This document shows, piece by piece, positions 14,702 through 52,459 of a stretch of DNA of 64,000 nucleotides. Where the stretch lies: assembly GCA_001789205.1 (NCBI GenBank), contig MFYT01000096.1, positions 1 to 64,000 on the forward strand. Reading direction: 5' to 3'. The DNA is from Candidatus Raymondbacteria bacterium RIFOXYA2_FULL_49_16 (GTDB lineage Bacteria; Fibrobacterota; OXYB2-FULL-49-7; XYB2-FULL-49-35). Positions within the stretch are counted from its first letter, which is position 1, and each line of letters begins with the position of its first letter. The position numbers and the translations under genes were made by a program. The notes beneath the pieces were generated by a model. It worked only from the letters and a program-made list of their open reading frames with translations, ran no database searches and was not told the DNA's origin.

Positions 14702-14759
14702 GATTCGGGTACTCCTTGCATGACCATGATACTTTTGTTTCATTTGTAGTTCCCCACGC

Positions 14760-20700: not shown

Positions 20701-23027
20701 GTTAATTTATAATTGCCGTTCAGCGGCGGGCCAGTAACGCTATCGAATATGCCTGCGCCATTCCAATGTATGGTCTTGGAGGTATCGGATGCTACGGTAT
20801 AGGTGCCTGCTGAAATCTTTTTGCTGCTGTCATTAGCCTGCGTCCACTGCACAGCAAACGTGCAGTACCCGCCATATCCGTTTATTGTTACATTTGCAGA
20901 TTCAGGAAATACATTCCCGCTGCCTTGGAATAAGGTAACTGTTATATTTCCCGGTTCGACTCCTATGTTATTTTTGAATATCTGGATTTTTCTTACCAGC
21001 TGTATATGGTCTGTTCCAGAGGAATTTGTCTGCACAACAAGGAACAGGTCCTGGCCGTGTGAATAATCGTTAGGATTGAAAGGAACTGACAACCCTTCAA
21101 AATCCTGACTATCATACGCAAGAGTACATGCAGTTTCCAGTCCCGGATTTGCCAGGCTGGTCAGGTCATTTGTATCCGTAACTATGCCGACAATGATTGG
21201 AATGGATTTGCCGTCTATTCGTGTGTCTCCACCATACCCGAGCGTAATCTTAAAATTCAGGTCCGGTCCTGTACTATCAATAATCGCAATACCCGAAATG
21301 GCAGGCTTGTAATCCGCCCTTATAAACTGAAAACCCTCGATGGTATCGCTAAAATTTCCACACCCATCACTTTTTATGCGTCCAAATAATTTATATGTCC
21401 CTGGTTCCAAGAATTTCGCAAGGTTCGTTTCATGTATATCCCCAATAAAAGAAACCGAATCACCGATCCGTTCAGTATTATTCGGCTGAATAAGACTATC
21501 TTTTATCTTCGTCTCTAACAACCCGCTCCCACTATCTACAATGCCATTCGACGAGTCCTTTACTATCCAGTTAAAAAAATAGCCGGCAGGACCTTCTATA
21601 GAATCAGTGACGCTGCCCATCATTGTTCCCGTATTTACATGCGGCGTCCAATCTAATTTTACATACTTTGGGGTGCCAAAGCTCCACCCTGACGTATCAC
21701 CTGCAGGTTGTGTGGGCGCTACGATGGTGCTAAGCTCGGGACGACGGCGAAGGTATTGAGAATAGGTCATGGTGTCAGGTATTGATCGTACGGCACTAAA
21801 AATTGAATCTGTTAAATATACGCTTAACTCCCAATCGCCCCCACCCGCAACACTGTCAATATCAAGAGGGATAGATGCATTAACTTTGTTAAACAATATT
21901 TCACGAGAAAAATTTGTATCATATTCGGCAGAAGGATTCTCATCTCCCCAGAAATGCACTGTATCTCTTCCTGAAAAAACCCTACCACTAAGTCCGTTTA
22001 GAGAAAACGACCAATCCAAAAAAGCAGCTTGCGAAAGCGTATCGCGTTTGCCGTATATTACAGCACCTATAGGAAATGTGAAATACGTACCACTCCCATC
22101 AGGAACCGCACCATCTAAGACATATAGTCGCATGCTATCCACTATCATATTTTCATCATCGGGTATGTTTCGCAAATGCTCTACTCTTAATGAGGCTGTA
22201 GAATTTGTAAACCTAAAAACATCAAAGGGGCCTGTTTCCAAATCATATAAGTCGTTTTTACTTAACTCAATATATCCTAATTTATCTTGTGGCAAATTCT
22301 GAGAACTTGCTACAGTAATATTTCTTGTAACTGGGTCTGGAAAACTTCCTCCTTTTGCAAGAGTTGGCCCCACATCTGTATAAGTTGAATCGTCGCCAGG
22401 AATGCCAAGCGTTTTCCAAATGGTTTTTTCTCTATGTCCTTCCTGACATATTCCAGGACGGACATCTAATGGATCTATTCCCCATATTGTTTTAAAGAAA
22501 GCCTGCCCCTCATCATCAACATCTATCCTAAATAGTCCCAGATCTATATAAAAACCGTTTTCGACTTTCTGAATCCTTAAAAACATATAGCTATAGCCAA
22601 TCGATGGCTTATACAAATTAGCTGCTAAATAATATTCCGTATTGGCTAACATGGTAAACCTAACGGTACCATCTCCTGGAAGATAAAACATGTTACCAGG
22701 ATCTTCTTCTTCATCTAAATTTAAGGGACTATCATCAGAGTTAAAATAAATAATAACATTCTGATTTGACTCGGTACGAAATTGAGCGTATCGAACTATA
22801 TTACTATTATTCACCACCATAGGAGTTATACCATCTACGAAACCGCTGCGGTTGCCTGCAATGATGTTATAATGCTCTGTTCCGGACGATTCTATTTTCA
22901 AATCAACATTTCCATCGGGTAATTGCGCATACAAAACAATAGGGCTTAAAATCATCAATAAAATAAGAGGGCATATAAATGCCTTTAAAACATTTCTTTT
23001 GAGTAAACATTTTGGACATATTCTCAT
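14760..23027 (-). CDS. Giant secreted repetitive beta protein (2755 aa)
   Basis: Function unknown. The N-terminus is a signal peptide (basic MRICPKCLLKR, then a long hydrophobic core ending at LYAQ), and AAAGGA lies about 10 bp upstream of the ATG at 23027. The first half (to about residue 1300) carries Ig/cadherin-like beta repeats with recurring 'DSTG..' and 'ITVTANIKEKD' style strands. The second half (about 1400-2450) is a long series of short beta units built on 'GL.L..V....PNG...L.G', reminiscent of AsmA/TamB-type repeats, though that comparison is only by eye. The last 300 residues are Gly- and aromatic-rich. No catalytic motif and no type IX sorting domain was seen. It is the first gene of a two-gene minus-strand unit. 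Confidence 0.8.
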   Translation of the reverse strand: MRICPKCLLKRNVLKAFICPLILLMILSPIVLYAQLPDGNVDLKIESSGTEHYNIIAGNRSGFVDGITPMVVNNSNIVRYAQFRTESNQNVIIYFNSDDSPLNLDEEEDPGNMFYLPGDGTVRFTMLANTEYYLAANLYKPSIGYSYMFLRIQKVENGFYIDLGLFRIDVDDEGQAFFKTIWGIDPLDVRPGICQEGHREKTIWKTLGIPGDDSTYTDVGPTLAKGGSFPDPVTRNITVASSQNLPQDKLGYIELSKNDLYDLETGPFDVFRFTNSTASLRVEHLRNIPDDENMIVDSMRLYVLDGAVPDGSGTYFTFPIGAVIYGKRDTLSQAAFLDWSFSLNGLSGRVFSGRDTVHFWGDENPSAEYDTNFSREILFNKVNASIPLDIDSVAGGGDWELSVYLTDSIFSAVRSIPDTMTYSQYLRRRPELSTIVAPTQPAGDTSGWSFGTPKYVKLDWTPHVNTGTMMGSVTDSIEGPAGYFFNWIVKDSSNGIVDSGSGLLETKIKDSLIQPNNTERIGDSVSFIGDIHETNLAKFLEPGTYKLFGRIKSDGCGNFSDTIEGFQFIRADYKPAISGIAIIDSTGPDLNFKITLGYGGDTRIDGKSIPIIVGIVTDTNDLTSLANPGLETACTLAYDSQDFEGLSVPFNPNDYSHGQDLFLVVQTNSSGTDHIQLVRKIQIFKNNIGVEPGNITVTLFQGSGNVFPESANVTINGYGGYCTFAVQWTQANDSSKKISAGTYTVASDTSKTIHWNGAGIFDSVTGPPLNGNYKLTVTANIKEKDIVQKSGDFEFSWADPVISGVNFGNQGAIDTSGNLWFGSTPNAVKAKITGPTIYNGLNIWVYSVLSLNGLQPNNLGNPVLTIPKSDAASQTERNIALDTTGVKNGPYTVWLKAAISPGGADSSITFTSQGIRIDTSKIPDFNIIGQAICSTGSQHFKILHALAAGNAPILRYGYVVTNWNNQTVITLQNIGLDTAFNTSLPQSRLISWAPGPNDTNNSYTLDVQTQNILNIPSRLQERSFKFKVDLDAPLVDYSVNTNVAAFTGSNEWNSTRNVQRYKVYLKVDSLRDVSRSVFSIKKTDSSNEESIDDSALFSDTGYGLEYTITDVDTDGNAVLTSYAKDMAGHKRTTLHTLTLDFTEPSMAACTLSHDGSAMTLHWNGNIASDAITTNPSDILVRVYIKETGNGIETRDSLPDYTGNKQNIITHALDNIGSETDSGSVYEIFIHAIDQAGNRKAQGFKINSNGTIDGIAIKNFFYFGNWILSGEIAPDKVGPPANVQIEFNSQCNALGIPSRTMAVPESSFNWIDGQNGSKIITTVDLSDSFLSNVRYNSVPNQVPLKLKGLRLSKVHDKTMMIDTITADAGSYHFKYANVPLYGAVQLGGLQAIDMKGRTSPITSASFSGWTLQAIRDTLTENGIIVSGNLSAFHDSLNSPLVAKRMHLTYSGVNLGIENGVVNPFAVKPDSTAYNVRHAHLDHQNHEIDIDSAYVVFYDGVVPDRSPYGGEGIYSLKAGDLALTNTNQLNTSSSWWTEIISPLSGTGGVTQAKAAFPISIGENEIIAGDLIEFTSDGKGNLLFQTPVYQNGDNPVTQLSGTHKVTSYGIKASIELLNVEYPIGKYGFARIKAGKGIKDLSSGSKITLKENVQLKWSIPNVSGLTGKTTNLDLDSLDIFPVNDVLSDSVSDSVIARYSFDPSRIVRTNFADPVYGIISSWMENASGNMQLYDFTLKDDRIVIDSICFDLPYMKDNAKVCGKNIEIIPEWENKKPGLKLKGRISLDSGTVWLDAAKYGYGLKLHWGGCEINLGDNTQITFPNGASAALYGDFPKLDFSGKGEAFIDSAGTSLDTAAFAINSILITARGLSDFYYETKPLCAKFFNNNLALSGKMFFKVDAGAQAMDAGLKNVTVRVDSFPDIPSLSGRAITLNALNLTGMNPSTFTSKIGLNASDTIGLFAYSIDTAVFSYVDDKFTIAGKNFNFSLTDSFPVNALKGATANFNNLSFNISTGKLDYSDISIDLPNGKVVYTLPYIDGLQDTLTSIKASRDSIGFSGSLVFTQDFAFESLRNTEVKNFNIMIDMGSGAPRLKRADANIHRGERKIELAGLVTIGYKDIIVSYNGDIPNPISRWSFSLGSGITAQLTNNIEIDGLKGRCLTVHAFTLTSGGDVDVMDIGTPLTPFDFYGFDCHGIGNNMEVSIGRDTSGKYYGVLSNVTIHTPYNLPWFGDRNVTIETFKINEDGIVSEFNATTKFSDIPMPFDLNVDTIGVGLAKKGLTAAKENFKVYLFDGSIKTPDLGSTFSPENFNLSGSTLRIDTVAVNFGGVIERTKFSGSIDSIRLGWSGFGVKFEDVRLDKDGVYARTGQLTLPKDISANWLTTSLQLADFHVAKSGVSFIPGITKFEVPLFQGARLVFEDIAFDFKNPALTCHKATAILPDILKGGRVELNDIRLDNDDPYFHVASGGARVELDAKDLHVPIDVIGLGNLKLFMGYTSALGFYYGGEASAVLPGLEGELGAVVEVAEKLDTMPLPFLKKTCMTFKASGLGIPVGATGVYLNGITGCYEQGDWDGTVPVEYAEYCFRSAAMDGRRLQLRLYFTAGGGIAEGEVGFWVNVEKIDIVEFGKLVILGWVEGNECVGVAKNFSDFRGHVKIGIDKWGVEIWGEAWVHLWEAANRAKFTVKAELGAALKKGAAGKVFGVAVPPFSLGPVIVGAEAGDFANNKKGFMLYYDFPVVGEYGVLMQSGIDLVDPGDYPLAE

Positions 23028-30551: not shown

Positions 30552-31430
30552 ATGGGATTCTTTGAATTTCTCTTCAGACCGCAGCCAAAACCAGCCAAAG
30601 CCCCTGCTTCACCCGCAGACAGGGGCTCCTCGCCTGCCCCGGAACAGCCACAGGCCCAGGGGCCCATTCCTGCCCAGGAACCACCGCGTATCCAACGTGC
30701 CCCATTGCCCGCAGGACGAGCGAAACCCAGGCAGGAAGCACGGCTTCCCGGACCGTTCGATCAGTTCGTAGCGGCAGGGCTCAGAGCAATACGGTTCATC
30801 GATAAAAAAGGCTATCGCAAGGCATTGGCTGGAGTCTTGTATCGCAAAGGACACATCATCGCGACCGATGGTCATAGACTCCTCAAGGAACGCGTACCCA
30901 TTCCCGCTCATCTGGACGAGGTCATAATCCCGCCGGAGCTGTTTGTTGCGCATCGGCATGTTCCCATCAAGACACTTTCCCTGACCCGCGACCGGAAATC
31001 CCTGATGGTGAATGGCCAGCCGTGTCGCTTGATCGTAGGTGAAAAGTATCCGGACACAGACTCTGTGACACCAACGGTGTTCAAATTCCAGATCACCTTT
31101 GACAGGCTGCCGGTGGAAGATGCGCTGAGGCTGGCTGGCGAAAGCAAGCAGGCCGTATTCACGACCATGATGGGCAATAGGCTCAGGATGACTGTAAACC
31201 AGACCGTTCCGCCGACGGTCATCCCCTTCAAGGGACAGGTGGAGAACACGGAATTTGCCTTCAATCCGGCTTTCTTGCTTGGGGTGCTGCGGAGCCTTGA
31301 AGGTGACAACGTGACAATGAAAGGGAACTCACCCTTGAGCGCATTCGTGTTTCAGGGTGAACAGCCTGAGAGAACAGCGTTGCTGATGCCGGTGAGGATC
31401 ACAGCGGAAGAAATGAGAGCAGCAGCTTAA
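30552..31430 (+). CDS. Sliding-clamp-like (DnaN-type) protein, two domains
   Basis: A 292-aa protein. Residues 1-66 are a Pro/Ala-rich linker after a short FFEFLFRP head. Residues about 68-292 resemble the beta clamp of DNA polymerase III: ATDGHRLL (as in the clamp's AxDGxRL motif) and a C-terminal block NTEFAFNPAFLLGVLRSLE ... LLMPVRI, the signature end of DnaN. Length allows only two of the usual three clamp domains. It may load onto DNA as a higher-order ring or act as a decoy or partner for the host polymerase. AAAGGAG precedes the ATG. Confidence 0.7.
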   Translation: MGFFEFLFRPQPKPAKAPASPADRGSSPAPEQPQAQGPIPAQEPPRIQRAPLPAGRAKPRQEARLPGPFDQFVAAGLRAIRFIDKKGYRKALAGVLYRKGHIIATDGHRLLKERVPIPAHLDEVIIPPELFVAHRHVPIKTLSLTRDRKSLMVNGQPCRLIVGEKYPDTDSVTPTVFKFQITFDRLPVEDALRLAGESKQAVFTTMMGNRLRMTVNQTVPPTVIPFKGQVENTEFAFNPAFLLGVLRSLEGDNVTMKGNSPLSAFVFQGEQPERTALLMPVRITAEEMRAAA

Positions 31431-38287: not shown

Positions 38288-38548
38288 ATGCCAAGAATCA
38301 GCAAAGAAGAACTCATCAAGCTGCAGAAGACCTTGAAAACCGACGACGCAATCGGCAAGAAATTCAAAATCACCAGACAGGCAGTGCACCAGATGCGCGT
38401 GAAATACGGTCTGGATTACAACAGGAAGAAGAACCAGGAGCGGAACGAACAGGTCAAAAAGCTGTTCAAGACCGCTGACGCGGGAGTGGTGGCAAGGAAG
38501 CTGGACCTCTCCGTGTCGCAGGTATATAGAATACTCCGGCATAAATAG
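38288..38548 (+). CDS. Small double helix-turn-helix protein (86 aa)
   Basis: AGGAGG precedes the ATG. The all-helical basic protein holds two HTH-like units: residues about 18-42 (TDDAIGKKFKITRQAVHQMRVKYG) and 62-84 (TADAGVVARKLDLSVSQVYRILR). Both have the spacing of homeodomain-like/resolvase-type HTH segments. It is probably a DNA-binding regulator of the element or its cargo. Confidence 0.65.
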   Translation: MPRISKEELIKLQKTLKTDDAIGKKFKITRQAVHQMRVKYGLDYNRKKNQERNEQVKKLFKTADAGVVARKLDLSVSQVYRILRHK

Positions 38549-38646
38549 AGCATGCCCGAGGGAACCGAAGAAGTCCTCCTTCCCGCCCTCGTAAATTGGT
38601 TTTATATTCCCCTTGCCACATCACTTTCGCAATAGGCTTATCTATA

Positions 38647-39225
38647 TTAATATTGATCTCTACCATACCCCATCAGAGTTCCATGTTTCAGCCTCAGTCT
38701 CAGTTCAAGATCAAGTGCTTTTAAAGCAAAAAATGGGGTGTGACGAATATTAGCTGCATCCATTTGTCTGGCTTCGAATAAAACCCTTTCGATTAATCGC
38801 TTATCCTTAATTTTCTGAACAAGCTTTATTAACAGATAGTCACGGCACTGTATTATATAGGCATAGTTCTTCCTAATACCATCAAAAAGGCAATCTTCAT
38901 ATGCATGAATCATTTCGTGTAAGAGGATATGCTTCAAAATGGGTTTTCCTTTTAACGTTTCATTGATGCGAATTTCTCTGTTTTCGTAATCGATCGTACC
39001 AAGAATTTGGCCCTCTGTTGTGTTTTTATCTGGAAAATACTTAAAAATCCAACAGAGGGTATTGGAAGGAAAAAGGGTAGGCAATTCCCAAGTGCCTTGG
39101 CAATCAAAATCATCCGGAAAATCTTGTAAGGTAAAATCGGTAAAATATTCTCCTTGAAAATCACTGGCCATTTCAAACAGCTTTGGGTCAGACAGGGACT
39201 GACGAAAAAAAGGGTCTTTTTCCAT
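38647..39225 (-). CDS. SprT-like metallopeptidase (192 aa)
   Basis: Opposite strand to its neighbours. The start at 39225 (MEKDPFFRQSL) has GGAGG 6 bp upstream. HEMIH at about residue 103 (KHILLHEMIHAYEDC), preceded by an N-terminal beta region (GTIDYENREIRINETLKGKP), matches SprT-like/zincin domains used in DNA-protein crosslink repair and in many mobile elements. The third zinc ligand is not certain: the typical SprT CxxC zinc ribbon is absent. It is possibly a minimal SprT-type or ImmA-like protease. Confidence 0.65.
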   Translation of the reverse strand: MEKDPFFRQSLSDPKLFEMASDFQGEYFTDFTLQDFPDDFDCQGTWELPTLFPSNTLCWIFKYFPDKNTTEGQILGTIDYENREIRINETLKGKPILKHILLHEMIHAYEDCLFDGIRKNYAYIIQCRDYLLIKLVQKIKDKRLIERVLFEARQMDAANIRHTPFFALKALDLELRLRLKHGTLMGYGRDQY

Positions 39226-39319
39226 AATATCCTCCATTGGTGGGATTTAAAACTATTATATCAATAAAATAAATATTTCGGAGTGTTGAAGCTAAGGACA
39301 TGCTCAAGACACATGCCTG

Positions 39320-39462
39320 GTGTCCGGACTGCTGGAATAAATTACACGCGCCAAAGATGGGGTACTATCTGTAAACGACGTGGTCCCGGCCTATTCCCAC
39401 TTGTCTTTCGCCTTTGCCGCTTCCTTGGTCTGCCACTGCATGTTGCTGGGATCGTCAGCGCC
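39320..39462. repeat. Copy 1 of a duplicated segment (HNH 3' end)
   Basis: Plus-strand sequence from GTGTCC at 39320 through the HNH gene's 3' part. It matches, with many changes, the stretch at 39862-40005. Shared runs include AATTACACG, ACTATCT and the antisense of NMQ. Confidence 0.5.
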
Positions 39463-39594
39463 GCTGTGCTTCAGGGCTTTGGCATGGTCAATGACGTAAC
39501 CTGGACAGAGACCGCTCGTTTTACCCGTTGATGGGCTTTGATGCGACCATTCGAAGTCCCGGACCCTTTTCTTGCTGGTTTTTATACTTGGCAT
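39391..39594 (-). CDS. Small HNH endonuclease (67 aa)
   Basis: A short, but apparently complete, HNH (His-Me finger) protein. SPSTGKTSGLCPGYVIDHAKALKHSG then DDPSNMQWQTKEAAKAKDKWE is the typical sequence of small HNH nucleases with the CPGYVxDH core, the Asn (NMQWQT) and the closing KAKDKWE. The N-terminus is basic and no signal peptide is seen; many relatives have one, so the frame may lack its original front. A degraded second copy of its 3' part lies about 540 bp away. Confidence 0.65.
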   Translation of the reverse strand: MPSIKTSKKRVRDFEWSHQSPSTGKTSGLCPGYVIDHAKALKHSGADDPSNMQWQTKEAAKAKDKWE

Positions 39595-39613
39595 AAAATT
39601 AATTTTTTATATT

Positions 39614-39820
39614 ATGAATTCTGTCATTTTACGGGAATTGTGCAATGGATGCGGGGTCTGCGCCAAAACCTGCTCTGAAGTATTTATGATGGATTTGCAG
39701 GGCAAGGCAATCGTCAAGGTCACAACCGTATTGCAGGATGTGGAAAAGAAGTGTCTGGAAGCGGCAAACCAGTGTCCGACAAAGGCTATTGAGGTCTACA
39801 GAAAAGGAAAACGTATATAA
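39614..39820 (+). CDS. Ferredoxin, single 4Fe-4S type (68 aa)
   Basis: Small electron carrier. The start at 39614 (MNSVILRELC) is preferred over a longer frame. Residues 10-20 hold a CxxCxxCxxxC cluster (CNGCGVCAKTC) and the C-terminal part has the remaining site (ANQCPTKAIEVY). This is the layout of monocluster 4Fe-4S ferredoxins, with an extra Cys in the N-terminal loop. No redox partner lies next to it. It sits between two copies of an HNH-containing repeat, which suggests it was picked up as a passenger. Confidence 0.75.
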   Translation: MNSVILRELCNGCGVCAKTCSEVFMMDLQGKAIVKVTTVLQDVEKKCLEAANQCPTKAIEVYRKGKRI

Positions 39821-39861
39821 GCACTTTGCCGTGCGGCATGAATGGTTAAAACGCGCAGCGG

Positions 39862-40005
39862 GTGTCCTAATTGCTGAAATAAAAATAAATTACACGCCAA
39901 CGCTGAGGCACTATCTATTACGTACGACGGTCTGATCCGTAGAACCTCTCCTGTTCAATTACCTCTGCTGCCTACTGCATATTGCCGAGATTGTCAGGGC
40001 CGGAA
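39862..40005. repeat. Copy 2 of the duplicated HNH segment, degraded
   Basis: Aligns by eye with 39320-39462, including the order GTGTCC, TGCTG, AATTACACG, ACTATCT. The HNH frame survives here only as the last residues of the 295-aa neighbour (GPDNLGNMQ). Confidence 0.5.
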
Positions 40006-40859
40006 TCAAAATTGTCTTTAGAAATATGCCTTTTATTTATTTCAGTGCTGGTATAGAAATCCCACCTCTTGTCAAAATCCACCTGTCGAACGTCCGTCGA
40101 ATAATCCATAGTCAATTTATCCAAGTCGATCTTAAACCGGGGCGGTGATATTAAAGACGCTGTCTTTTCGATGCCTTTCATCTTTGTTGTGTGCGTAATC
40201 CATTTTAAAAATTCTTCATATGCCATATCCCCGGTTTGCGTCTTTGGGGAGAGAATACCATGATATTCACCGGGATCGTTTAGAAATAATAAAAACAGAC
40301 CGCAATCCGTCGATGTGACGTTATCGAATACTGGATCGCCGAACTCTTTTCCGACAAATATCTGGTAATATTTCAATACGTGGCTAAACAGGAAACGGAA
40401 AAATAATTTCTCGATTATGCTGTATGGGGATGAATACACCTGCGCCAACAGTTCCTTGGAAACATCGGCGTTGCGTGCCTGGTGGAGCAGTATCTTTCGG
40501 ATCTCGGGGTGCTTCCCGATGGCATAAGGCTCTTCCCAAACATCCTCATCTATATATATTGCTGTCCGAACCATCATCTCAAATTCCTGTTTGATCGGCT
40601 TTATGGCCCTGATCTCCTCGTTCTTATTACAGAAGTCATCCAGGTTTTTGGCAAAGGTGAGTGCAGTTTCAAAGGTCCAGTTGCTTTGGCCACTCAGCAA
40701 TAAAGAGTAGTATTTGGTGCTGCCGTAAGTAGTGTTTATGAATGCCGTAAGGTTTGAATCGCTTTCAGAACGCTTCAGGTAGTAGGAATGTTTTTTTAGG
40801 ACACAACTAATATGATCGCGCTTCTTCTGGCTCAATGATTCTTTTCTTGTGTTTTCCAT
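39972..40859 (-). CDS. Unknown 295-aa protein, divergent to the AAA+ module
   Basis: No family recognised. Soluble and mostly helical. Residues about 14-75 have the spacing of a helical DNA-binding front (VLKKHSYYLKRSESDSNLTAFINTTYG ... ETALTFAKNL), so a regulator is possible. The C-terminus GPDNLGNMQ matches part of the small HNH protein (DDPSNMQ), so the last ~10 residues seem to come from a fused HNH remnant. It is transcribed away from the RuvB-like/MoxR/VWA genes across a shared AT-rich promoter region, which fits a regulator of that set. Confidence 0.65.
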   Translation of the reverse strand: MENTRKESLSQKKRDHISCVLKKHSYYLKRSESDSNLTAFINTTYGSTKYYSLLLSGQSNWTFETALTFAKNLDDFCNKNEEIRAIKPIKQEFEMMVRTAIYIDEDVWEEPYAIGKHPEIRKILLHQARNADVSKELLAQVYSSPYSIIEKLFFRFLFSHVLKYYQIFVGKEFGDPVFDNVTSTDCGLFLLFLNDPGEYHGILSPKTQTGDMAYEEFLKWITHTTKMKGIEKTASLISPPRFKIDLDKLTMDYSTDVRQVDFDKRWDFYTSTEINKRHISKDNFDSGPDNLGNMQ

Positions 40860-40921: not shown

Positions 40922-40992
40922 ATTATCTATCTTTATATGGTTAGCCTTATCTATATTTTTATGTTGACCCTGGCTAGTTATAAATATATTTT
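40922..40992 (+). promoter_or_regulatory. Promoter with tandem direct repeats before the AAA+ genes
   Basis: Two copies of a TTATCTAT(C/A)TTT.TATG motif (about 40923-40940 and 40948-40964) are followed by TTGACC (40964-40969) and an AT-rich -10 region (TATATT at 40985-40990). A related stretch (CTTATCTATATTAATAT) is seen near 38637. Tandem spacing suggests a regulator-binding site. Confidence 0.4.
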
Positions 40993-41013: not shown

Positions 41014-41910
41014 ATGTTCATGTTTCGTTCCACATTTATTATGGAGGGCCTCAAATGGCTAACATTTGTACTCGTTTCCGCAGTTTTGTACTGGAATCTC
41101 AGTACAACATTCCCATTTTTCGGTACAGGAGAAGCAGGAATGCGTCCGTTAGAAAGTTTTAATGGTTTCATCGGACAGACGAAAGCTGTCGAGTCGATTA
41201 TGATTGAACTTTGCGGGTCGGCAAAGGCAGGCAAAGTTCCGGAGGGTTTTCTTCTGACAGGAAATCCAGGTCTTGGAAAAACAGAGATGGCAAAGGCCAT
41301 TGCGATACAAAATAAAACCGCATTTCATACGGTACGATTTGTTACGAGAACCGAGATAGCGAAGGTGTTGTCGAAGGTCGAAAAAGGCGACATCGTTTTT
41401 GTGGATGAAGGACATCGCGTCCGGCATGAATTTTATGAACTGCTTTTCCCATGCATTGAACGGAAAGGGTTGACACTCAGTGATATCTTGGGTAAGGAAA
41501 AAGAGATTGAAGGGATTGATTCAAAAAAGCAAATTCAAGATTTTATTTTTATCATCGCCACAGACCAGCCAGGCAGCCTTCCCAATGCATTGAAAACCAG
41601 ACTGAAGGACCATATTCTTGATTTTTATTCAGAACGTGAACTGCGGACAATCATTTCCAACTGGTTTGACAGTGAGAATAAAAAGGTGCCGATGGATGAG
41701 AGCGGAATGCCAAAGAAAGAAGCTTTGGTTGAATTTACTCCTCATGTATTGACCGTCATTGCAAGGACTGGGAAAGGGAACCCACGTCAAGCTCTGAGGC
41801 ACGCTAAAACCGTTCGTCACGCAGCATTGGCAGCAGGCATGAATTCAATAAACGCACCGTTCTGTAAATCATGTTTAAAAAAGAACGATATTTCTAAAAA
41901 CAGGCCTTGA
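41014..41910 (+). CDS. RuvB-like AAA+ ATPase with membrane segment, N-terminal part
   Basis: A RuvB-family AAA+ domain: SFNGFIGQTKAVE (as in RuvB's F.d.IGQ), Walker A GNPGLGKTE (83-91), Walker B DIVFVDEGHR (Asp131, Glu132), sensor region IATDQPGSLPNALKTRLKDHI, and the NPRQALR arginine motif near 265. A hydrophobic segment at about 13-36 could anchor it in the membrane, unlike true RuvB. The frame stops at 41910 and the family's C-terminal winged helix continues in the next frame, so the gene is split by a +1 shift within 41876-41908. AAGGG lies 8 bp before the start. Confidence 0.8.
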   Translation: MFMFRSTFIMEGLKWLTFVLVSAVLYWNLSTTFPFFGTGEAGMRPLESFNGFIGQTKAVESIMIELCGSAKAGKVPEGFLLTGNPGLGKTEMAKAIAIQNKTAFHTVRFVTRTEIAKVLSKVEKGDIVFVDEGHRVRHEFYELLFPCIERKGLTLSDILGKEKEIEGIDSKKQIQDFIFIIATDQPGSLPNALKTRLKDHILDFYSERELRTIISNWFDSENKKVPMDESGMPKKEALVEFTPHVLTVIARTGKGNPRQALRHAKTVRHAALAAGMNSINAPFCKSCLKKNDISKNRP

Positions 41911-42145
41911 TGCGAATGACGTGAAAATAATGAAAGCGCTATATAACGCTGCGGGTCCTATCAGCATCCGAGAATTAGCCAACATTACCGGCATCGACGA
42001 GGATAGTATATCTCAATACTACGAACCATACCTGAACCGGATTAATTTTATTCACGTATCCAGCAAAGGCAGATACTTAACGTCAAGAGGCAATATTTTC
42101 ATGGAGGACAAGTATGCATATCGTAAAAGTAGGACGGCCGCTTAA
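41911..42145 (+). pseudogene. C-terminal winged-helix part of the RuvB-like gene, out of frame
   Basis: Continues the RuvB-like protein in the +1 frame. GLDANDVKIMKALYNAAGPIS, upstream and through the ATG at 41921, corresponds to RuvB's GLDxxDxxIL. Then come IRELANITGIDEDSISQYYEPYLNRINFIHVSSKGRYLTSRG, equal in pattern to the RuvB_C DNA-binding winged helix. The usable window for the shift contains an A6 run (41877-41882) and an A5 run (41896-41900). It is a sequencing error, a mutation or programmed slippage; two coupled subunits are also possible. Confidence 0.7.
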
Positions 42146-43094
42146 AAAGTTAATTGCCGCTGCTTACAAGGCAAGACAGCCTGTTTTGCTCGTTGGCAAA
42201 CATGGTCTGGGGAAAAGTGAAATTTTCAAGGAGGTGGCGGCAGAACTGAAGATCGAAGCCAAAGTAATAGACCTGTCAATTATTGAGCCTGTTGATTTGG
42301 CAGGATTACCAATGATCGACCAGATAGAAAAGGTAATGAAATACGCACAACCCGCAAGCCTACCGAGTGACAAGAATGGGAAAGGGATTATCCTTTTTGA
42401 AGAATTGAATCGCGTGCCCAAGGATCTGCAGGCCGCATGCCTGCAGATCTGCACTGAAAGAAAATTTAACAGTTATGAGTTACCTGACGGGTGGATCCCC
42501 TGCGCCGCAGTCAACCCCGTCACGGATGAGTATGACACAGACCAGCTCGATGCGGCGCTTATGAGCAGGTTCATGGTAGTATATATTGAGGCGGATGCTG
42601 ATGAATGGATTATGTGGGCAAGGGCCAACAAGGTGCATGAAGTCGTAATTGCATACCTTGAAAAGGACCGAAAAGCAATTAACGACCCAGACCTGAGCCC
42701 CCGAACTCTTTTTTATACATCGCGGTTCATTCTTTCGAATCAGAAAATAGATGATGATACCTTATTATCGGGCATTGTTGGCCTGGCGGGTGAAAAGCAT
42801 GGGTCTGCAATCTTTCGAATGCTCAAAAAGAAGGACATCGACCACCTTACGATAAAAGATATCCTAACCAATCCTACAAAAAGCGCTGATACTATTATAA
42901 TGATAGTAGAGAAACGCAGAACCGATAGGCTGTCAGACATAATGTCCATAATCTTGCAGTATGTGAAGAGTGGCAAAAGTCCCTCCAAGGACCAACATGT
43001 GAACCTCTTAGCTTTTATTGCCCTCTTGCCGGAACAGAAACAAAAAGAAATAAGGAGCTTTTGCAAAGGATGCGGATTTCAAACGAAGAAATAG
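42114..43094 (+). CDS. MoxR-like AAA+ ATPase
   Basis: A 326-aa MoxR-type ATPase: Walker A GKHGLGKSE (28-36), the MoxR patch DLAGLPMID, a Walker-B-like IILFEELNR (Glu96-Glu97, the usual Asp changed to Phe-Glu), sensor-1 AAVNP, and the DAALMSRF arginine-finger region. MoxR ATPases usually chaperone or remodel a target together with a VWA protein, whose gene follows at once. It overlaps the winged-helix gene by 32 bp. A GGAGG site precedes the ATG. Confidence 0.8.
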   Translation: MHIVKVGRPLKKLIAAAYKARQPVLLVGKHGLGKSEIFKEVAAELKIEAKVIDLSIIEPVDLAGLPMIDQIEKVMKYAQPASLPSDKNGKGIILFEELNRVPKDLQAACLQICTERKFNSYELPDGWIPCAAVNPVTDEYDTDQLDAALMSRFMVVYIEADADEWIMWARANKVHEVVIAYLEKDRKAINDPDLSPRTLFYTSRFILSNQKIDDDTLLSGIVGLAGEKHGSAIFRMLKKKDIDHLTIKDILTNPTKSADTIIMIVEKRRTDRLSDIMSIILQYVKSGKSPSKDQHVNLLAFIALLPEQKQKEIRSFCKGCGFQTKK

Positions 43095-44299
43095 AAGCCC
43101 AGGGCCATATAAGCACGGCCTTGATGCGTCTGGGACAAAAACATCAGTTCCATACCGCTCTTGCTAAGCATTGGGGTATCCATGCCGGCAAGGCCAGGTC
43201 AATCAGGGCCGAATTCAGCGATGAGGTGGAGATCATTTTTAGCCCAGGATATGTGAATAATGCTAAAAATATCGGGGTCATCGAGAAACGTTTATTGGCA
43301 GTATTAAAATCTATTATCAAGAAAGCATATGAAGAAAAAGACGAGGAGGAGGATAATGAGGAGAAGGATGATGGGGAGGACGGGGATGATGGAGAGGATG
43401 GGGAGAATGAGGCGATAGAATGCGAAAAGAAGAGCGAAGGTGGGCAGGAAAAAGATCCGCCAGATCCATCCAAGGCCGGGAATAGTCAGTCACTGCAAAC
43501 AAAAGCGAGTCAACAGGGTGACCAGCCAGACCCACAGAAAGAACGGGGGGATGAAGAACAACCATCCCCGCAGAACGCCGATATCGACGGCAATGGGCCA
43601 TCCCAGGGGAATCTGACGGAAGCTCTTAAGAATAAAATAAAAACTATTGCCAAATTATGCGCCATGGAGAACCCTGATGCTTCAGACATTCCCGCAGAGC
43701 TCCTGGGGGCAGACGATGATCAAAAATCGCAGGTAGGGAATATAGCAGGGAATGCGGCCGAAGTGGTAATCTCTGATGGCAATAGCGGGCTTCAATGGAA
43801 CAGAATTCTGAAAAACTACTTTGGTTCGGTACGAGAGAAGACTCGGACCAGAATGTATCCGAACAGACGCATGCCCGAGCTACTGGGTATCGTCCCTGGG
43901 AATAAACGGAGCTTTAGACGGCCGCGTATCATGATCGTCATCGACACTTCCGGGTCGATCTCCTCGGAGGATTTGACAATTATCGGCCGCGAGTGCAAGT
44001 ATTTCCGCCGTACGTCCGAGGTATGCATCGTCGAATGCGATTATGAAATTCATCGGATATACGATTTCAAGGGAAAGATCAAAGACGTTGTCGGACGAGG
44101 GGGAACTTCATTCTTACCGCCACTTGATGAAAAGTTCTTAGCAAAAAGGCGGGCTGAACTCGTAATTTATTTTACTGATGGTGAGGGACCGGCGCCTGAA
44201 AAGCCGCCGATAGTACCGATCATTTGGTGTCTTTTACGCCGAGATTCCATATCACCAGCGAAATATGGGCGGGTAGTTCGGTACGACAAGGAAATATAA
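43070..44299 (+). CDS. CobT-like VWA protein with acidic linker (409 aa)
   Basis: The start at ATG 43070 is chosen; an upstream TTG at 43061 is possible. About residues 80-200 are a very acidic, Gln/Pro/Gly-rich linker (EEDNEEKDDGEDGDD...), as in CobT/ViaA-type proteins. The C-terminal VWA domain has an intact MIDAS: DTSGSIS from Asp292, GRGGTSFLPP, and FTDGEG. No HExxH is visible in the N-terminal part, so it is not the metallopeptidase-fused form. It overlaps the MoxR gene by 25 bp, making a MoxR-VWA pair. The next gene follows after a hairpin. Confidence 0.8.
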   Translation: MRISNEEIEAQGHISTALMRLGQKHQFHTALAKHWGIHAGKARSIRAEFSDEVEIIFSPGYVNNAKNIGVIEKRLLAVLKSIIKKAYEEKDEEEDNEEKDDGEDGDDGEDGENEAIECEKKSEGGQEKDPPDPSKAGNSQSLQTKASQQGDQPDPQKERGDEEQPSPQNADIDGNGPSQGNLTEALKNKIKTIAKLCAMENPDASDIPAELLGADDDQKSQVGNIAGNAAEVVISDGNSGLQWNRILKNYFGSVREKTRTRMYPNRRMPELLGIVPGNKRSFRRPRIMIVIDTSGSISSEDLTIIGRECKYFRRTSEVCIVECDYEIHRIYDFKGKIKDVVGRGGTSFLPPLDEKFLAKRRAELVIYFTDGEGPAPEKPPIVPIIWCLLRRDSISPAKYGRVVRYDKEI

Positions 44300-44320
44300 G
44301 AGGTGGCCCAAACATCAACC

Positions 44321-44352
44321 GGCGCCAGGCCTGAAAATCCTGGCGCCATTTT
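44321..44352 (+). terminator. Hairpin between the VWA gene and its neighbour
   Basis: GGCGCCAGG (44321-44329) pairs perfectly with CCTGGCGCC (44339-44347), then ATTTT. The next ribosome site AAAGGAG follows at once, so it may be an attenuator or RNA-processing site rather than an end. Confidence 0.55.
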
Positions 44353-44364
44353 AAAGGAGAAAAA

Positions 44365-45132
44365 ATGGGGCTTTATTTGATATTACCCGGCGACAGATGG
44401 GGTAAAGTCATCAGGAAAGGTGAGACAGTGAGGAATGGCAATACGTGCATTCCCGTGTTTGATATTAAGGATGATGTTTTTGAAGGTTGCGTACCAAAAG
44501 TAGCTAAGGATATCATGGGCCTTGAAAGAGATGTGCTGCTGCTGGAAATCGTGAACCCGCCGGATATTGCCTACTACCCTATAAAACGCAAGGACGACTA
44601 TAATATCCTGGGGTTGGTACAAAATTTTGTCCCGGCGTCTGACATGAAACTCGTGTTTGCCTTCGACGTCACAGGCGGCGCACTGTGCACCATTCGCGAC
44701 GAGAAGCAGTGGCATGAGGAGTGGGAACAAAAGAACGATGCCATATTGCGCGGAAAGGTCCTTTGGACCGCTGAAGAATGGGTAGAGATCTTCAAAATCC
44801 AGGAAACCTTCGATCCCAAGAACCTGATAAACGAACAACGCCTGTACTTCATAGAACGCTACGGCAAAATGACCGGACTCAGCCATCATCTTCGATACGG
44901 GAAAATCCAGCAGTTTCTTGTTGAACATAAAGAGCAGCTTGAACAAGCTGGGCTGATGGTCATGGGTGCCAATAAGGGCTTAGCACTCAGGGCGGTACTG
45001 AAAGTACTTTGTGGAATGGAACACAACCATGACACCGGACGAAAGGGGCTTGGCAGATACACGTTCAGCTATGATGAGTTCATCAAGAAATTTTACGAAA
45101 TCCCAGAGGAAGAAAGGAAAACGAAGGCATAA
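44365..45132 (+). CDS. Unknown 255-aa protein of the AAA+/VWA cassette
   Basis: No family recognised. AAAGGAG precedes the ATG. The N-terminal 110 residues are beta-rich (GLYLILPGDRWGKVIRKGETVRNG), and the rest is helical with a basic patch (GLSHHLRYGKIQQFLVEHKEQLEQAG). It lies in the same direction as the RuvB-like/MoxR/VWA genes, separated only by a hairpin, so it may be the cassette's substrate or effector. It is bordered downstream by an 11-bp hairpin. Confidence 0.65.
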   Translation: MGLYLILPGDRWGKVIRKGETVRNGNTCIPVFDIKDDVFEGCVPKVAKDIMGLERDVLLLEIVNPPDIAYYPIKRKDDYNILGLVQNFVPASDMKLVFAFDVTGGALCTIRDEKQWHEEWEQKNDAILRGKVLWTAEEWVEIFKIQETFDPKNLINEQRLYFIERYGKMTGLSHHLRYGKIQQFLVEHKEQLEQAGLMVMGANKGLALRAVLKVLCGMEHNHDTGRKGLGRYTFSYDEFIKKFYEIPEEERKTKA

Positions 45133-47278: not shown

Positions 47279-49909
47279 ATGGACAATATTGAAAGAAAGT
47301 TCCTCTTCGCTCGTTTCGACGAAGAGTCAACCGGCCGCTTCCACGAGTTCTACGCTCTCTTTGGCGCGCGGCAGAGCGCCCCTGGCAGGAACTTCCATTG
47401 TTGGAACGGCGCGGCTCATGCCCATGGTGATGCGGATCCCAGTCTTTCCATCGATAATGAACGAGGGCTCTATAAATGCCATGCGTGTGGTATCAAGGGC
47501 AACTTCAATACATTTTACAAAGAGCAAGTGGCGAATGGCCCATTCGATAAATGGGGTGGCTCTTATATAAAATGTATGATGGATCTACTCAATATTGCGG
47601 ACGTTAGCGCCGGTGAATTGGACAAGGCTAAGATAGCGTACAAAAAACTCACCAATAGGCCTGTCGCGACTAGTCCTGTGGCCGCAGCGCCCGGACCGGC
47701 AACGAACCAAAAAGAAAAGAAAACAGCTGTACCACAAAATCCATCGATTAATGAAGGCTTTGTTGCGGAGCTGTTGAATAATGAAGAAAAGGTAAAGTAC
47801 CTCTACAATAAACGTCACATAACGAAAGAGATCATTATAAAATACGGCCTGGGTTTTTCATTTCAATGGGACGGTTTTACCTTCCCTATGTACAACCAAA
47901 AGGGCGAACTCGTCAATATCAAGGTCTATAGGCCGTGGATGCCAAAAGCCAAAAAGTGGCGTTGCATGTTCAAAGACAACCCCGTTGCTCCCAGCCCTCT
48001 CAGTTCTTTGACGGCTCAGAAGATTTATCTCCACGAGGGAGAACCCGATGCATATTGTTCCCTCGCCTTTGGTATAAATGGTTTTACCACCGGGGCCGCC
48101 GGGGGAATGAAACATATAAAGGAACAATTCGGCAATCAATTTGAGAAAATATTCAAAGGCAAAGAAATAATTATTGTCCCAGACAGGGACAAAACTGGAA
48201 TTGCGGCTGGAATGGCGGCCGCCGCAAGTCTGCATCTTATCGCAAATCTGGTCAAAATCATCAATTTAGACAAGTCAGAAAAAAATCCGGACGGACTTGA
48301 TCCTACATTATTGAATGATAAAGGCAAGCGAGTAGAAAAAGATTTCACTGATTTTCTGCAAAAGAATGGGATGGATGAAACTGCCAAATCTAAATTTCTC
48401 GACCTGGAGAATATAACAGAGCTTTGGAATCCACCAAGTGACTGCAATGAAAAAGAAGCAAAAAAGAAAAAACTATTGCCCGTTGAAATTGCCGAAGACT
48501 ACTTGAAAGCCCGTGCATACAACATTGAAGACAATTATTATTTAAGATATTATAATTATCACTTTGTCTTTTTCGATGGAAAGGTCTATCAGGTTCTTGA
48601 TGACACAGATGTTGAGAAAGACATATATCAATTTCTCCAGACATACATACAATACCGCGCTTATGCCCGACCCCAGATCGTAAAAGCCATTATCGAGAAT
48701 ATTTCAGCGCTTGCATACATTCCACATAACGTTGAGCAACCAGCCTGGATTAGCGACAATAAAATAGCAGGGCAGTTTGTTGTTGTTGAAAATGGCATCG
48801 TTAATATTACGGCTTTGATTGGCAAAAAAAGAGAAGACGAGATTCTTTTACGCCATACACGATATTTTTTTTCCACGGTAAAACTCCCATTTGAATATAT
48901 ACCCGCTGCAACTTGCCCGAAATTCAAAGAATTTATCGAGAAAGTTCTTCCTGATCCAAAAGTGCGCCAGTTGGTGTTGGAGTTTGTGGCATCTCTTTTC
49001 ATCCCAGAATTCCCTCATGAACACTTCTTGATTCTTATCGGGGAAGGCGCCAATGGGAAAAGTGTCTTCTTGAATATTACGATCGCCTTGATTGGCAAGG
49101 ACAACGTTTCATCCGTGCCGTTGGAATCATTTTCACAAACACATACGCTGGCGAACACGTTGGGTAAGTTGGCAAATATCGCCTTTGAAATGGGCTATAT
49201 CGATAAAGGAATCGAGGGCATCTTGAAAGCGTACGTTTCGCGCGAACCAATAATGATCAATCAGAAGTACAAACCGGTATATTCGGCAAGGCCGACAGCG
49301 CGCTTGATCTTCGCGACAAACAATGCTCCTCAATTCAGCGACCGTTCTTCTGGAATAGGACGTCGCCTATTGATGGCTGAGTTTAATCAAACCATTCCCG
49401 ATGAAGAGCAGGACAAATTGTTGGCCGAAAAAATCATTAAATCAGAACTGCCGGGAATATTTAATCTGCTCATGGAAAATCTGGCTGCGGTGTTGAAACG
49501 TGGACGCTTTGAGGAACCAGACGCGTGCAAAAAAGCCAAAGAGGCCCTGCGCACTGAAAATGATCCGGTCCGGTTGTTCTTATCGACGGAATGTGAATTC
49601 GACAAAGATTCGTTAACGAACTGCTCAGGCCTCTATGCATCCTATGTCACATATGCCCAGAAAACAAAACAAGAAATCGTTAAAAGCACCGTTTTTGGCA
49701 AGACCCTGCATAAAACTTTCCCCTTCATTGAACGGATCCAGCGCCGAGAGGGTGACTCGTCTAAATGGTATTATAAGGGCATTAAAATCATTGGTGACAG
49801 CCAGTTATGTGGCACAACCTATAGTTTTCCCGAGAAGGTTGTAACCGATGTAACCAACGAACTGGATAAAATTAAAAATGTTTATTATGCTCTTCGGAAG
49901 GATACATAG
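47279..49909 (+). CDS. D5-type primase-helicase (876 aa)
   Basis: Replication protein of the element, P4-alpha/D5-like. Order: zinc-binding CHC2-type region near the start (Cys41, His47/His49, Cys67, Cys70; FHCWNGAAHAHGD ... YKCHACGIKG); TOPRIM domain at about 250-320 (YLHEGEPDAYC, IIIVPDRDKTG); D5 N-terminal region; superfamily 3 helicase with Walker A GEGANGKS (588-595), a motif-B-like IAFEMG, motif C LIFATNNAP, and the GIGRRLL arginine finger. It combines initiator/primase and helicase roles. The zinc His replaces a usual Cys. It follows an alternative-folding leader. Confidence 0.9.
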   Translation: MDNIERKFLFARFDEESTGRFHEFYALFGARQSAPGRNFHCWNGAAHAHGDADPSLSIDNERGLYKCHACGIKGNFNTFYKEQVANGPFDKWGGSYIKCMMDLLNIADVSAGELDKAKIAYKKLTNRPVATSPVAAAPGPATNQKEKKTAVPQNPSINEGFVAELLNNEEKVKYLYNKRHITKEIIIKYGLGFSFQWDGFTFPMYNQKGELVNIKVYRPWMPKAKKWRCMFKDNPVAPSPLSSLTAQKIYLHEGEPDAYCSLAFGINGFTTGAAGGMKHIKEQFGNQFEKIFKGKEIIIVPDRDKTGIAAGMAAAASLHLIANLVKIINLDKSEKNPDGLDPTLLNDKGKRVEKDFTDFLQKNGMDETAKSKFLDLENITELWNPPSDCNEKEAKKKKLLPVEIAEDYLKARAYNIEDNYYLRYYNYHFVFFDGKVYQVLDDTDVEKDIYQFLQTYIQYRAYARPQIVKAIIENISALAYIPHNVEQPAWISDNKIAGQFVVVENGIVNITALIGKKREDEILLRHTRYFFSTVKLPFEYIPAATCPKFKEFIEKVLPDPKVRQLVLEFVASLFIPEFPHEHFLILIGEGANGKSVFLNITIALIGKDNVSSVPLESFSQTHTLANTLGKLANIAFEMGYIDKGIEGILKAYVSREPIMINQKYKPVYSARPTARLIFATNNAPQFSDRSSGIGRRLLMAEFNQTIPDEEQDKLLAEKIIKSELPGIFNLLMENLAAVLKRGRFEEPDACKKAKEALRTENDPVRLFLSTECEFDKDSLTNCSGLYASYVTYAQKTKQEIVKSTVFGKTLHKTFPFIERIQRREGDSSKWYYKGIKIIGDSQLCGTTYSFPEKVVTDVTNELDKIKNVYYALRKDT

Positions 49910-50852: not shown

Positions 50853-51224
50853 ATGCAATCCACCCCAAGCCCCATCCCCCGCCCCAGGTCTGCCTTTCCT
50901 GAACCAGCAGACACCCCACCTCAAAGCCCGACGCCACAAAACAACAGCGCCACCAACCAAGATATCTGGATCAAACAAGAGAAGGCACCATTACCATCCG
51001 GAGCCAAAAGAAAAAATATTGTCTCTCTGCCGGAACTATTAACGGTCACAGAAACCGCAGACTATTTAAAAGTCCCGGTGCAAACAATCTATTCTTGGAT
51101 ACACCGAAAACGTTTGCCTGCATTTAAAATCGGTTGCGGGGTTCGCATTCGGGCTGACTTCCTGGCTGCTAGACTCCAGGGTGAACAAGGAAAAGTGTTG
51201 AATGACACCATCACAAGCAATTAG
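50853..51224 (+). CDS. Excisionase-like HTH protein
   Basis: A 123-aa protein. Residues 1-56 are a Pro/Ser/Gln-rich linker. Residues about 60-108 form a MerR-type HTH_17 domain: LLTVTETADYLKVPVQTIYSWIHRKRLPAFKIGCGVRI. Its position just before the integrase is that of an excisionase (directionality factor). The long disordered front is unusual for Xis proteins. The start is not certain; an internal start nearer residue 50 is possible. Confidence 0.75.
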   Translation: MQSTPSPIPRPRSAFPEPADTPPQSPTPQNNSATNQDIWIKQEKAPLPSGAKRKNIVSLPELLTVTETADYLKVPVQTIYSWIHRKRLPAFKIGCGVRIRADFLAARLQGEQGKVLNDTITSN

Positions 51225-51268
51225 ATTTTCCGGAAGAGATCAAACTCCATGCCGAAAGGAGGCCTGAA

Positions 51269-52396
51269 ATGGCTACACTCCGATGGCGTGGACGCTCTTT
51301 ATGGCTGGATCTGCCCAACAAGGGACAACGGTTAAGGCAAAGCATCATTCGCCGACTCTCCGATGCTCCCAGCGAAATAAAACGCTGTGAACAATTGGGG
51401 CGCGAAGTTTTGTCCAAGCGGATAGTACAGCTTAAAGAGGAAACGTTCTTTGACATTAAGAAACCAAAGTACAATCCGAAATTCTGGCGGCTTGTCGGAC
51501 TGTATTGGCACTACCACTTGCGGATGAAGAGATCGGCAAAGCAGGAACGGTCAAAACTGAACGTCTTGTTGAAAGAATTCGGCAGGGAATACGCGGTGAA
51601 GATTACTCGGGACCGGGTCAGGGCATGGGTAAACAAATCCCGAAGCAAGCAATCAAGCAGGGGCACGCCCTACAACGTGGGAACAATCAACCGTTGGCTG
51701 GCATACCTGAAGGCTGTATATTACAATGCCTGTGACGAAGACTGCGATGAGGGCAAGCGGCTTGAACGGAATCCGGCGGCACGCATAGACCCAATTGAAG
51801 GCGAGACGATCCGGCAACACCTGGTAAACGAGTACGATTTCAGGCGCATGTACAATGCCGCGAACCCATGGTTCCGGCCTCTCCTGCTGGCTGCATGGGA
51901 AACGGGCTGCAGGCCCGAGGAGCTCTACAAGACCACTTGGTCGAACGTGGACATGATCGAAAGGGTGATTTATCTTCCCACCAACATTACCAAAACCGGA
52001 GAGGCACGTATCATACCCATGAGTGAGCGGCTGTTTGATGAAATAAAATCACTTCCTAAAAAAAGTGAATATGCTTTCACGAACCACATAGGCGGCCGAT
52101 ACAGGGATGTCAGGAACGAGGTCCAGAGAATCCGGGAAAGAACAGGGAATAATTTTTGGTTCCGGGATATGCGGAAAGGATTCGTGACAAGGAAAGTTTC
52201 AGAAGGTCACGATTATTTTGCCATCATGAGCATTACCGGACACCGTACAACGGCAACGTTCAAGCGGTATAATATCGGGACCCTTGCCCAAGCCAGAAAA
52301 GTGGTGGATTCAAGGCCAAAAAGTGACGGGAATAAAAATGATCTGTCACAAATCTGTCACACAGCGGAAACGAGGGCTGTAAGCAATTATCAATAA
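51269..52396 (+). CDS. int: Tyrosine-recombinase integrase
   Basis: A 375-aa phage-type integrase. The N-terminal part is a core-binding region with a SAM-like helical domain (about 75-165). The catalytic set: Arg215 (ETGCRPEE), Lys near 243 (ITKTGEARIIPM), box II RDMRKG at 299-304 where the usual His is Arg299 and Arg302 is kept, His325 (ITGHRTTATFKRY) and Tyr334 as nucleophile. The His to Arg change at box II is a known variant in some integrases. The gene ends 23 bp before a broken tRNA-Leu gene, the presumed attachment site. Confidence 0.9.
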   Translation: MATLRWRGRSLWLDLPNKGQRLRQSIIRRLSDAPSEIKRCEQLGREVLSKRIVQLKEETFFDIKKPKYNPKFWRLVGLYWHYHLRMKRSAKQERSKLNVLLKEFGREYAVKITRDRVRAWVNKSRSKQSSRGTPYNVGTINRWLAYLKAVYYNACDEDCDEGKRLERNPAARIDPIEGETIRQHLVNEYDFRRMYNAANPWFRPLLLAAWETGCRPEELYKTTWSNVDMIERVIYLPTNITKTGEARIIPMSERLFDEIKSLPKKSEYAFTNHIGGRYRDVRNEVQRIRERTGNNFWFRDMRKGFVTRKVSEGHDYFAIMSITGHRTTATFKRYNIGTLAQARKVVDSRPKSDGNKNDLSQICHTAETRAVSNYQ

Positions 52397-52419: not shown

Positions 52420-52459
52420 ATTTTAAGTCCCTTGTGTCTGCCTATTCCACCACCCGGGC
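52420..52459 (-). tRNA. 5' fragment of tRNA-Leu(UAA), broken at the anticodon loop
   Basis: Read on the minus strand from 52459, the sequence has the acceptor stem GCCCGGG, the D-arm with GTGGAAT, and the stretch AGACACAAGGGACTTAAAA up to and including the anticodon UAA. After that, the 3' half of the anticodon stem (TCCC...) is missing and unrelated sequence begins. The break point is typical of integrases that target the anticodon loop, with the element on the 3' side. The matching 3' half was not found in the window. Confidence 0.8.

Follow-up and report, generated by a model that had tools for sequence, protein, structure and literature searches.

MoxR-type AAA+ ATPases and VWA proteins form a known pair of phages, plasmids and bacteria. 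The phage form, described in Schitoviridae, Vequintavirinae and jumbo phages, consists of a MoxR AAA+ ATPase and a vWA/metallopeptidase protein (phrog_1297/phrog_1314, COG0714/COG3864), and a survey of jumbo phages proposed a role for this pair in virion assembly and processing (PMC7824862). In the MoxR-vWA-centric ternary conflict systems of the VMAP, iSTAND and FtsH classes, the two proteins are combined with a third component (PMC7159879, PMC12839542).

Here, an operon in which such a pair lies downstream of a RuvB-like gene was analysed in a window of 64,000 nt, the whole stretch of DNA studied (Candidatus Raymondbacteria bacterium RIFOXYA2_FULL_49_16, GCA_001789205.1, contig MFYT01000096.1, positions 1-64,000). 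With slightly better than even confidence, the locus is explained as a phage-type MoxR-VWA chaperone pair on an integrative element together with a diverged, split RuvB paralogue, the RuvB-like gene and an orphan 255-aa gene being mere neighbours of the pair rather than conserved parts.

Organization of the operon

Four adjacent ORFs on the + strand (41014-41910, 42114-43094, 43061-44299 and 44365-45132) were listed, as in the first-pass annotation, and the four genes, which are real, lie in one tight operon. This follows from their anatomy, with interlocking starts and ends: the MoxR start at 42114 precedes the end of the upstream frame at 42145, the VWA start (43061, or ATG 43070) precedes the MoxR end at 43094, and the gene encoding the 255-aa protein starts 65 bases past the VWA gene with a clear AAAGGAG site. 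The Pfam matches were RuvB_N (72 bits), the MoxR-type AAA_3 (34 bits) and the DUF2201 VWA family (53 bits), with none for the 255-aa protein. The identification of the parts is firm and agrees with the earlier reading of a RuvB-like ATPase, a MoxR-like ATPase, a VWA protein and an unrecognised protein. The features are collected in Table 1.

Table 1. Coordinates of the operon and of neighbouring features in the window
Feature	Position	Strand	Remarks
SprT-like metallopeptidase gene near the operon	38647..39237	-	E=2e-4, below Pfam cut-off
Divergent 295-aa gene	39972..40859	-	no family matched
Tandem 24-nt direct repeat, operator-like	40923..40970	+	copies at 40923/40947, divergent promoter region
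RuvB-like AAA+ ATPase	41140..41910	+	Walker A GNPGLGKT, Walker B VFVDE, Arg finger and sensor-2 Arg kept; frame open from ATG 41014
+1 frame-change interval	41878..41907	+	begins in A6 run of TGTTTAAAAAAG at 41872; HMM-preferred point 41890-41904
RuvB C-terminal winged-helix domain, +1 frame	41905..42145	+	listed as ORF 41921-42145; PF05491 E=1e-12
MoxR-type AAA+ ATPase	42114..43094	+	phage ATPase family phrog_1297, E=3e-51; GGAGG ribosome site
VWA (DUF2201/COG3864-type) co-chaperone	43061..44299	+	likely start ATG 43070; N-terminal 95 aa truncated metallopeptidase fold without HExxH, acidic linker, intact MIDAS
Orphan 255-aa protein	44365..45132	+	no family matched
P4/D5-type primase-helicase of the element	47279..49909	+	downstream of the operon
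Excisionase-like HTH_17 gene (50853-51224) and tyrosine integrase (51269-52396)	50853..52396	+	

Frame change in the RuvB-like gene

A +1 frame change separates the AAA+ and winged-helix domains of the RuvB-like gene and splits it. Pfam matched RuvB_N to the listed ORF but RuvB_C (E=1e-12) to the short ORF immediately 3' of it, which lies in the +1 frame. Frame 0 ends after the AAA+ part, with a stop at 41910, and frame +1 is not open until past a TAA inside TGTTTAAAAAAG (41872 onward), so the frame change is confined to about 30 bases. Every switch point was scored with a profile built on canonical RuvBs of this phylum: the 0 frame alone reached 74 bits, switching at the A6 run 118 bits, and most switches at 41890-41904, where 0-frame KKNDIS and +1-frame TGLD both fit the RuvB linker, 119-123.5 bits. 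The frame-joined protein aligned colinearly with the RuvB of T. maritima (Thermotoga) through the junction. Its RuvB_N score (72.4, cut-off 27) and RuvB_C score (48.2, cut-off 24.7) place it in the RuvB superfamily, and AAA_lid_4 scored 14.7, under the cut-off of 27.

A single-base indel, arising by mutation or assembly error, is the simplest reading of the split. Against it stands the observation that the long genes examined in the window are all open, so that a random sequencing indel is not obviously frequent. The residue pattern favours a switch a few codons beyond the A6 run, a position that plain slippage at the run would not predict. It is improbable that the change is programmed, with ribosomal +1 frameshifting or transcriptional slippage yielding a short AAA+ form and a long winged-helix form like tau/gamma of dnaX. 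The interval does include two A-runs (A6 and, second, A5) and CCT-TGA directly after an AGG codon, the winged-helix frame is fully open with good RuvB_C similarity and coding-like composition, and the surrounding genes are intact, but no stable, stimulating RNA structure lies downstream of the switch interval (z=+0.83), the A-runs are short, and the same break was found in no homologue (distant homologues, about 36% identity at most). Shifting of the dnaX type at A AAA AAG goes -1, not +1, and a dnaX-like frameshift at this site was dropped because the winged helix sits in the +1 frame. Equally improbable is a RuvB whose halves are translated separately by coupling (stop 41910; GTG 41921 or ATG 41930): the stop and the next in-frame start are only 10 bases apart, but no ribosome site precedes 41921 or 41930, and a start at either would leave out the conserved GLD segment that precedes the first helix of the winged helix.

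Start and relatives of the RuvB-like protein

The earlier description of a RuvB-like ATPase with an extra membrane segment holds for the RuvB similarity, but the gene is not read here as a 298-aa protein with such a segment. Similarity to RuvB starts at MRPLESFNGFIGQ (codon 43, 41140), preceded by AGGAGAAGCAGGA, with a Shine-Dalgarno AGGAG ahead of the M at 41140. The 42 residues upstream contain a hydrophobic stretch and show flat, non-coding-like GC1/GC2/GC3 and a codon score near zero. Judged by these sequence features, 41140 appears to be a better start than ATG 41014 and the N-terminal extension is not supported; the membrane segment depends on choosing the upstream ATG.

It had also been considered that the gene might be an ordinary chromosomal ruvB moved by chance. 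This is not so, since the host ruvB and ruvA are ordinary, intact and side by side on another contig of the genome. The RuvB-like protein is about 30% identical to RuvBs and was rejected as a RuvB orthologue: its AAA+ part scored 103-110 bits and its winged helix 33-34 bits against an NCBIfam ruvB equivalog cut-off of 282-299, and, with the winged helix in the +1 frame, there is no continuous AAA+-lid-winged-helix protein. It shares the AAA+ N-domain, winged helix, Walker A/B, Arg finger and sensor-2 arginine with RuvB, the Holliday-junction branch-migration ATPase, but has lost three residues at the SGP motif, has an altered hairpin at the RuvA contact and some 16 inserted residues, is broken in frame, and has no ruvA recognised beside it. 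The altered SGP motif and hairpin may bear on RuvA binding. In phage and plasmid records, RuvB-like matches were only about 25-31% identical, and the annotated ones are ordinary RuvB or Holliday-junction helicases.

Distribution of the MoxR-VWA pair

The MoxR protein matches phrog_1297 and the VWA protein phrog_1314, both phage families, and the AAA_3 MoxR-type gene is followed directly by the VWA gene. Together with the AAA_3 and DUF2201 matches and the primase and integrase nearby, this bears out the proposed MoxR-VWA remodelling pair beside a divergent RuvB-like ATPase on an integrative element. The two genes are also side by side in Salmonella phage FSL SP-058 and a Sphaerotilus plasmid, and are separated by one gene in an Arcobacter plasmid.

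The first-pass annotation had proposed that the four genes form one system and had named rare co-occurrence of their homologues as evidence against it. In IMG/VR and GTDB genomes (Bacteroidales, Treponema and others), 101 loci encoding relatives of MoxR or VWA at 25-36% identity were compared: 92 have a VWA gene no more than 4 kb from MoxR, and none has a RuvB-like gene, the weak generic AAA+ matches reaching at most 15 bits. Relatives in the same phylum likewise carry the pair without a RuvB-like neighbour; two of these loci encode an AAA+ protein of 776-777 aa that matches the RuvB profile weakly but is too long for a RuvB. An IMG/VR search with the RuvB-like, MoxR, VWA, 255-aa and DUF932 proteins returned distant MoxR/VWA relatives only. 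For the operon proteins no homologue was closer than about 36% identity, and linkage and frame were compared at that distance. The four genes were thus not found together elsewhere among relatives of at most 36% identity, the outcome that the first-pass annotation had set against its own proposal, and a four-part cassette is not supported outside this element at the distances sampled.

The 255-aa protein had no homologue in phages, plasmids, IMG/VR pattern scans or 167 genomes of the phylum, and no family or significant PDB match. The structure prediction suggested earlier for this protein gave an uninterpretable single-sequence model (pLDDT 35).

In 30 loci (within L087-L166, mostly Bacteroidales), a 382-aa protein of no known family is encoded directly upstream of MoxR. 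This gene was compared as possible kin of the RuvB-like or 255-aa protein, and no relation was found.

Loss of the peptidase motif in the VWA protein

As annotated before, the VWA protein has a very acidic linker (D/E at 21/37 residues) and an intact MIDAS, whose residues D295-x-S-x-S (DTSGS), T349 and D373 are invariant in 45 relatives. The VWA partners of phages and plasmids carry HExxH in an N-terminal metallopeptidase domain, whereas EKRLL (IEKRLLAVLKSI) stands at that place in the window protein. In the predicted model, the first 95 residues form a confident helix-hairpin-helix (pLDDT about 90), followed by the low-confidence acidic linker and the VWA fold. In structure comparison, phage "metallopeptidase domain" and "VWA-like" proteins matched most of the length of the model, and the matches among solved structures were midasin and NorD-type VWA domains.

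By sequence and model, the protein is of the phage "metallopeptidase-VWA" type with the peptidase half truncated and HExxH lost, and the N-terminal remnant is presumably catalytically dead. The phage pair has the same gene order and MoxR subtype, likewise a VWA with MIDAS, and shares the helix-hairpin-helix at the N-terminus of the peptidase domain, but here HExxH and the rest of the peptidase are gone, with the acidic linker instead, and the pair lies on an integrative element with a RuvB-like gene upstream. A second comparison, with VIA-align 2, was confined to the VWA domain. In a tree of the VWA part, the window protein clusters with six phage proteins, five of them retaining HExxH (support 97/98, long branches). 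This grouping suggests that HExxH was lost in the lineage of the window protein, its exact place in the tree being unsure because of the long branches.

The SprT-like metallopeptidase encoded near the operon could possibly act as a peptidase in trans. YgjP/SprT-like genes occurred beside 11/77 VWA partners without HExxH compared with 0/12 otherwise, numbers too few to conclude from; these 11 loci are among L087-L166.

Element setting and possible function

In addition to the primase-helicase, excisionase-like gene and integrase, a block at 26-32 kb encodes a PD-(D/E)XK exonuclease, a DUF932 protein, a sliding-clamp-like protein and an M48 peptidase. This block may be part of the same element, its membership being uncertain because genes with host-like secretion features lie between it and the operon region. 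The clamp-like gene (30552-31430) is a mobile-element gene resembling the DNA polymerase III sliding clamp (phrog_947, E=2e-19), with only weak matches in phage records (about 24-25% identity, including Salinibacter phage clamps). No attachment-site repeats above chance length were found around the integrase and no Rfam family in 24-54 kb. Just past the integrase, AGTCCCTTGTGTCTGCCTATTCCACC (52426-52455) resembles a tRNA 3' end; it has no second copy in the genome and may mark one end of the element.

With primase, integrase, clamp-like protein and exonuclease nearby, the operon setting points to processing of element DNA or protein rather than to defence. Within this integrative element with its own DNA-processing genes, MoxR would form an ATP-driven ring, and the VWA protein would dock through its MIDAS metal-ion site on this ring or on a client, as family knowledge suggests, the two together remodelling one of the element's protein complexes. 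The strongly diverged RuvB paralogue placed upstream in the same operon probably served, or still serves, the element as a DNA-translocating motor; it is now split by the +1 frame change, most simply a single-base indel.

Other functions were weighed against this explanation. It is unlikely that the pair is a chaperone of virion assembly or structural-protein maturation left by a phage ancestor of the element: the role proposed for the jumbo-phage MoxR-vWA-metallopeptidase pair (PMC7824862) and the match of the VWA model to phage proteins would fit, but no capsid, portal or terminase gene was found among the element proteins scanned, and the peptidase motif is lost. A MoxR-VWA-centred ternary anti-phage (conflict) system with the RuvB-like or 255-aa protein as third component is decidedly unlikely. 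The operon shares the MoxR-VWA core with the published VMAP, iSTAND and FtsH systems (PMC7159879, PMC12839542), but no defining third component and no effector domain fused to the VWA protein was found with Pfam, PADLOC and NCBIfam, scans that included no VMAP/iSTAND profile and left the 255-aa and 295-aa proteins unclassified. PADLOC gave no convincing defence model, the best being a generic AAA+ match of 26 bits, and the nearest VWA relatives are phage proteins. Least probable is that the RuvB-like motor and the MoxR-VWA pair form a nucleoprotein-remodelling machine of the mobile element, with the +1 change as a programmed switch between forms with and without the winged helix.

The phage pair also occurs on bacterial integrative elements in a form without its peptidase, which would set the chaperone role apart from proteolysis, and if the RuvB-like protein is truly a partner, a DNA motor would be joined to a protein-remodelling ring. 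The locus is mainly a well-defined test case and a caution: of the features that gave it an exotic look, two, the membrane segment and the absent RuvB C-terminus, are explained by the choice of start and by a frame change.

Two very large ORFs on the - strand (68-14794 and 14760-23027; 4908 and 2755 aa) are repetitive and probably encode secreted surface proteins.

Divergent gene and promoter repeat

The divergent gene and direct-repeat promoter described earlier upstream of the operon were both recovered. From its position, the 295-aa gene is possibly a regulator. The copies of the tandem repeat agree at 19/24 positions, and 0/100 dinucleotide shuffles of the same AT-rich stretch gave a repeat as good.

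The 16-mer TTATCTATMTTWWTAT, a pattern picked after the repeat had been seen, has three sites in the 64 kb (38638-38653, 40923-40938 and 40947-40962) against 0.22 expected, with up to 2 mismatches. Two of them are in the operon promoter and one is between an HTH gene (38288-38548) and the SprT-like gene. Similarly worded stretches at 39283-39560 and 39840-40000 (aattacacg...actatct...) flank a small ferredoxin-like ORF (39572-39820) and are possibly decayed repeats.
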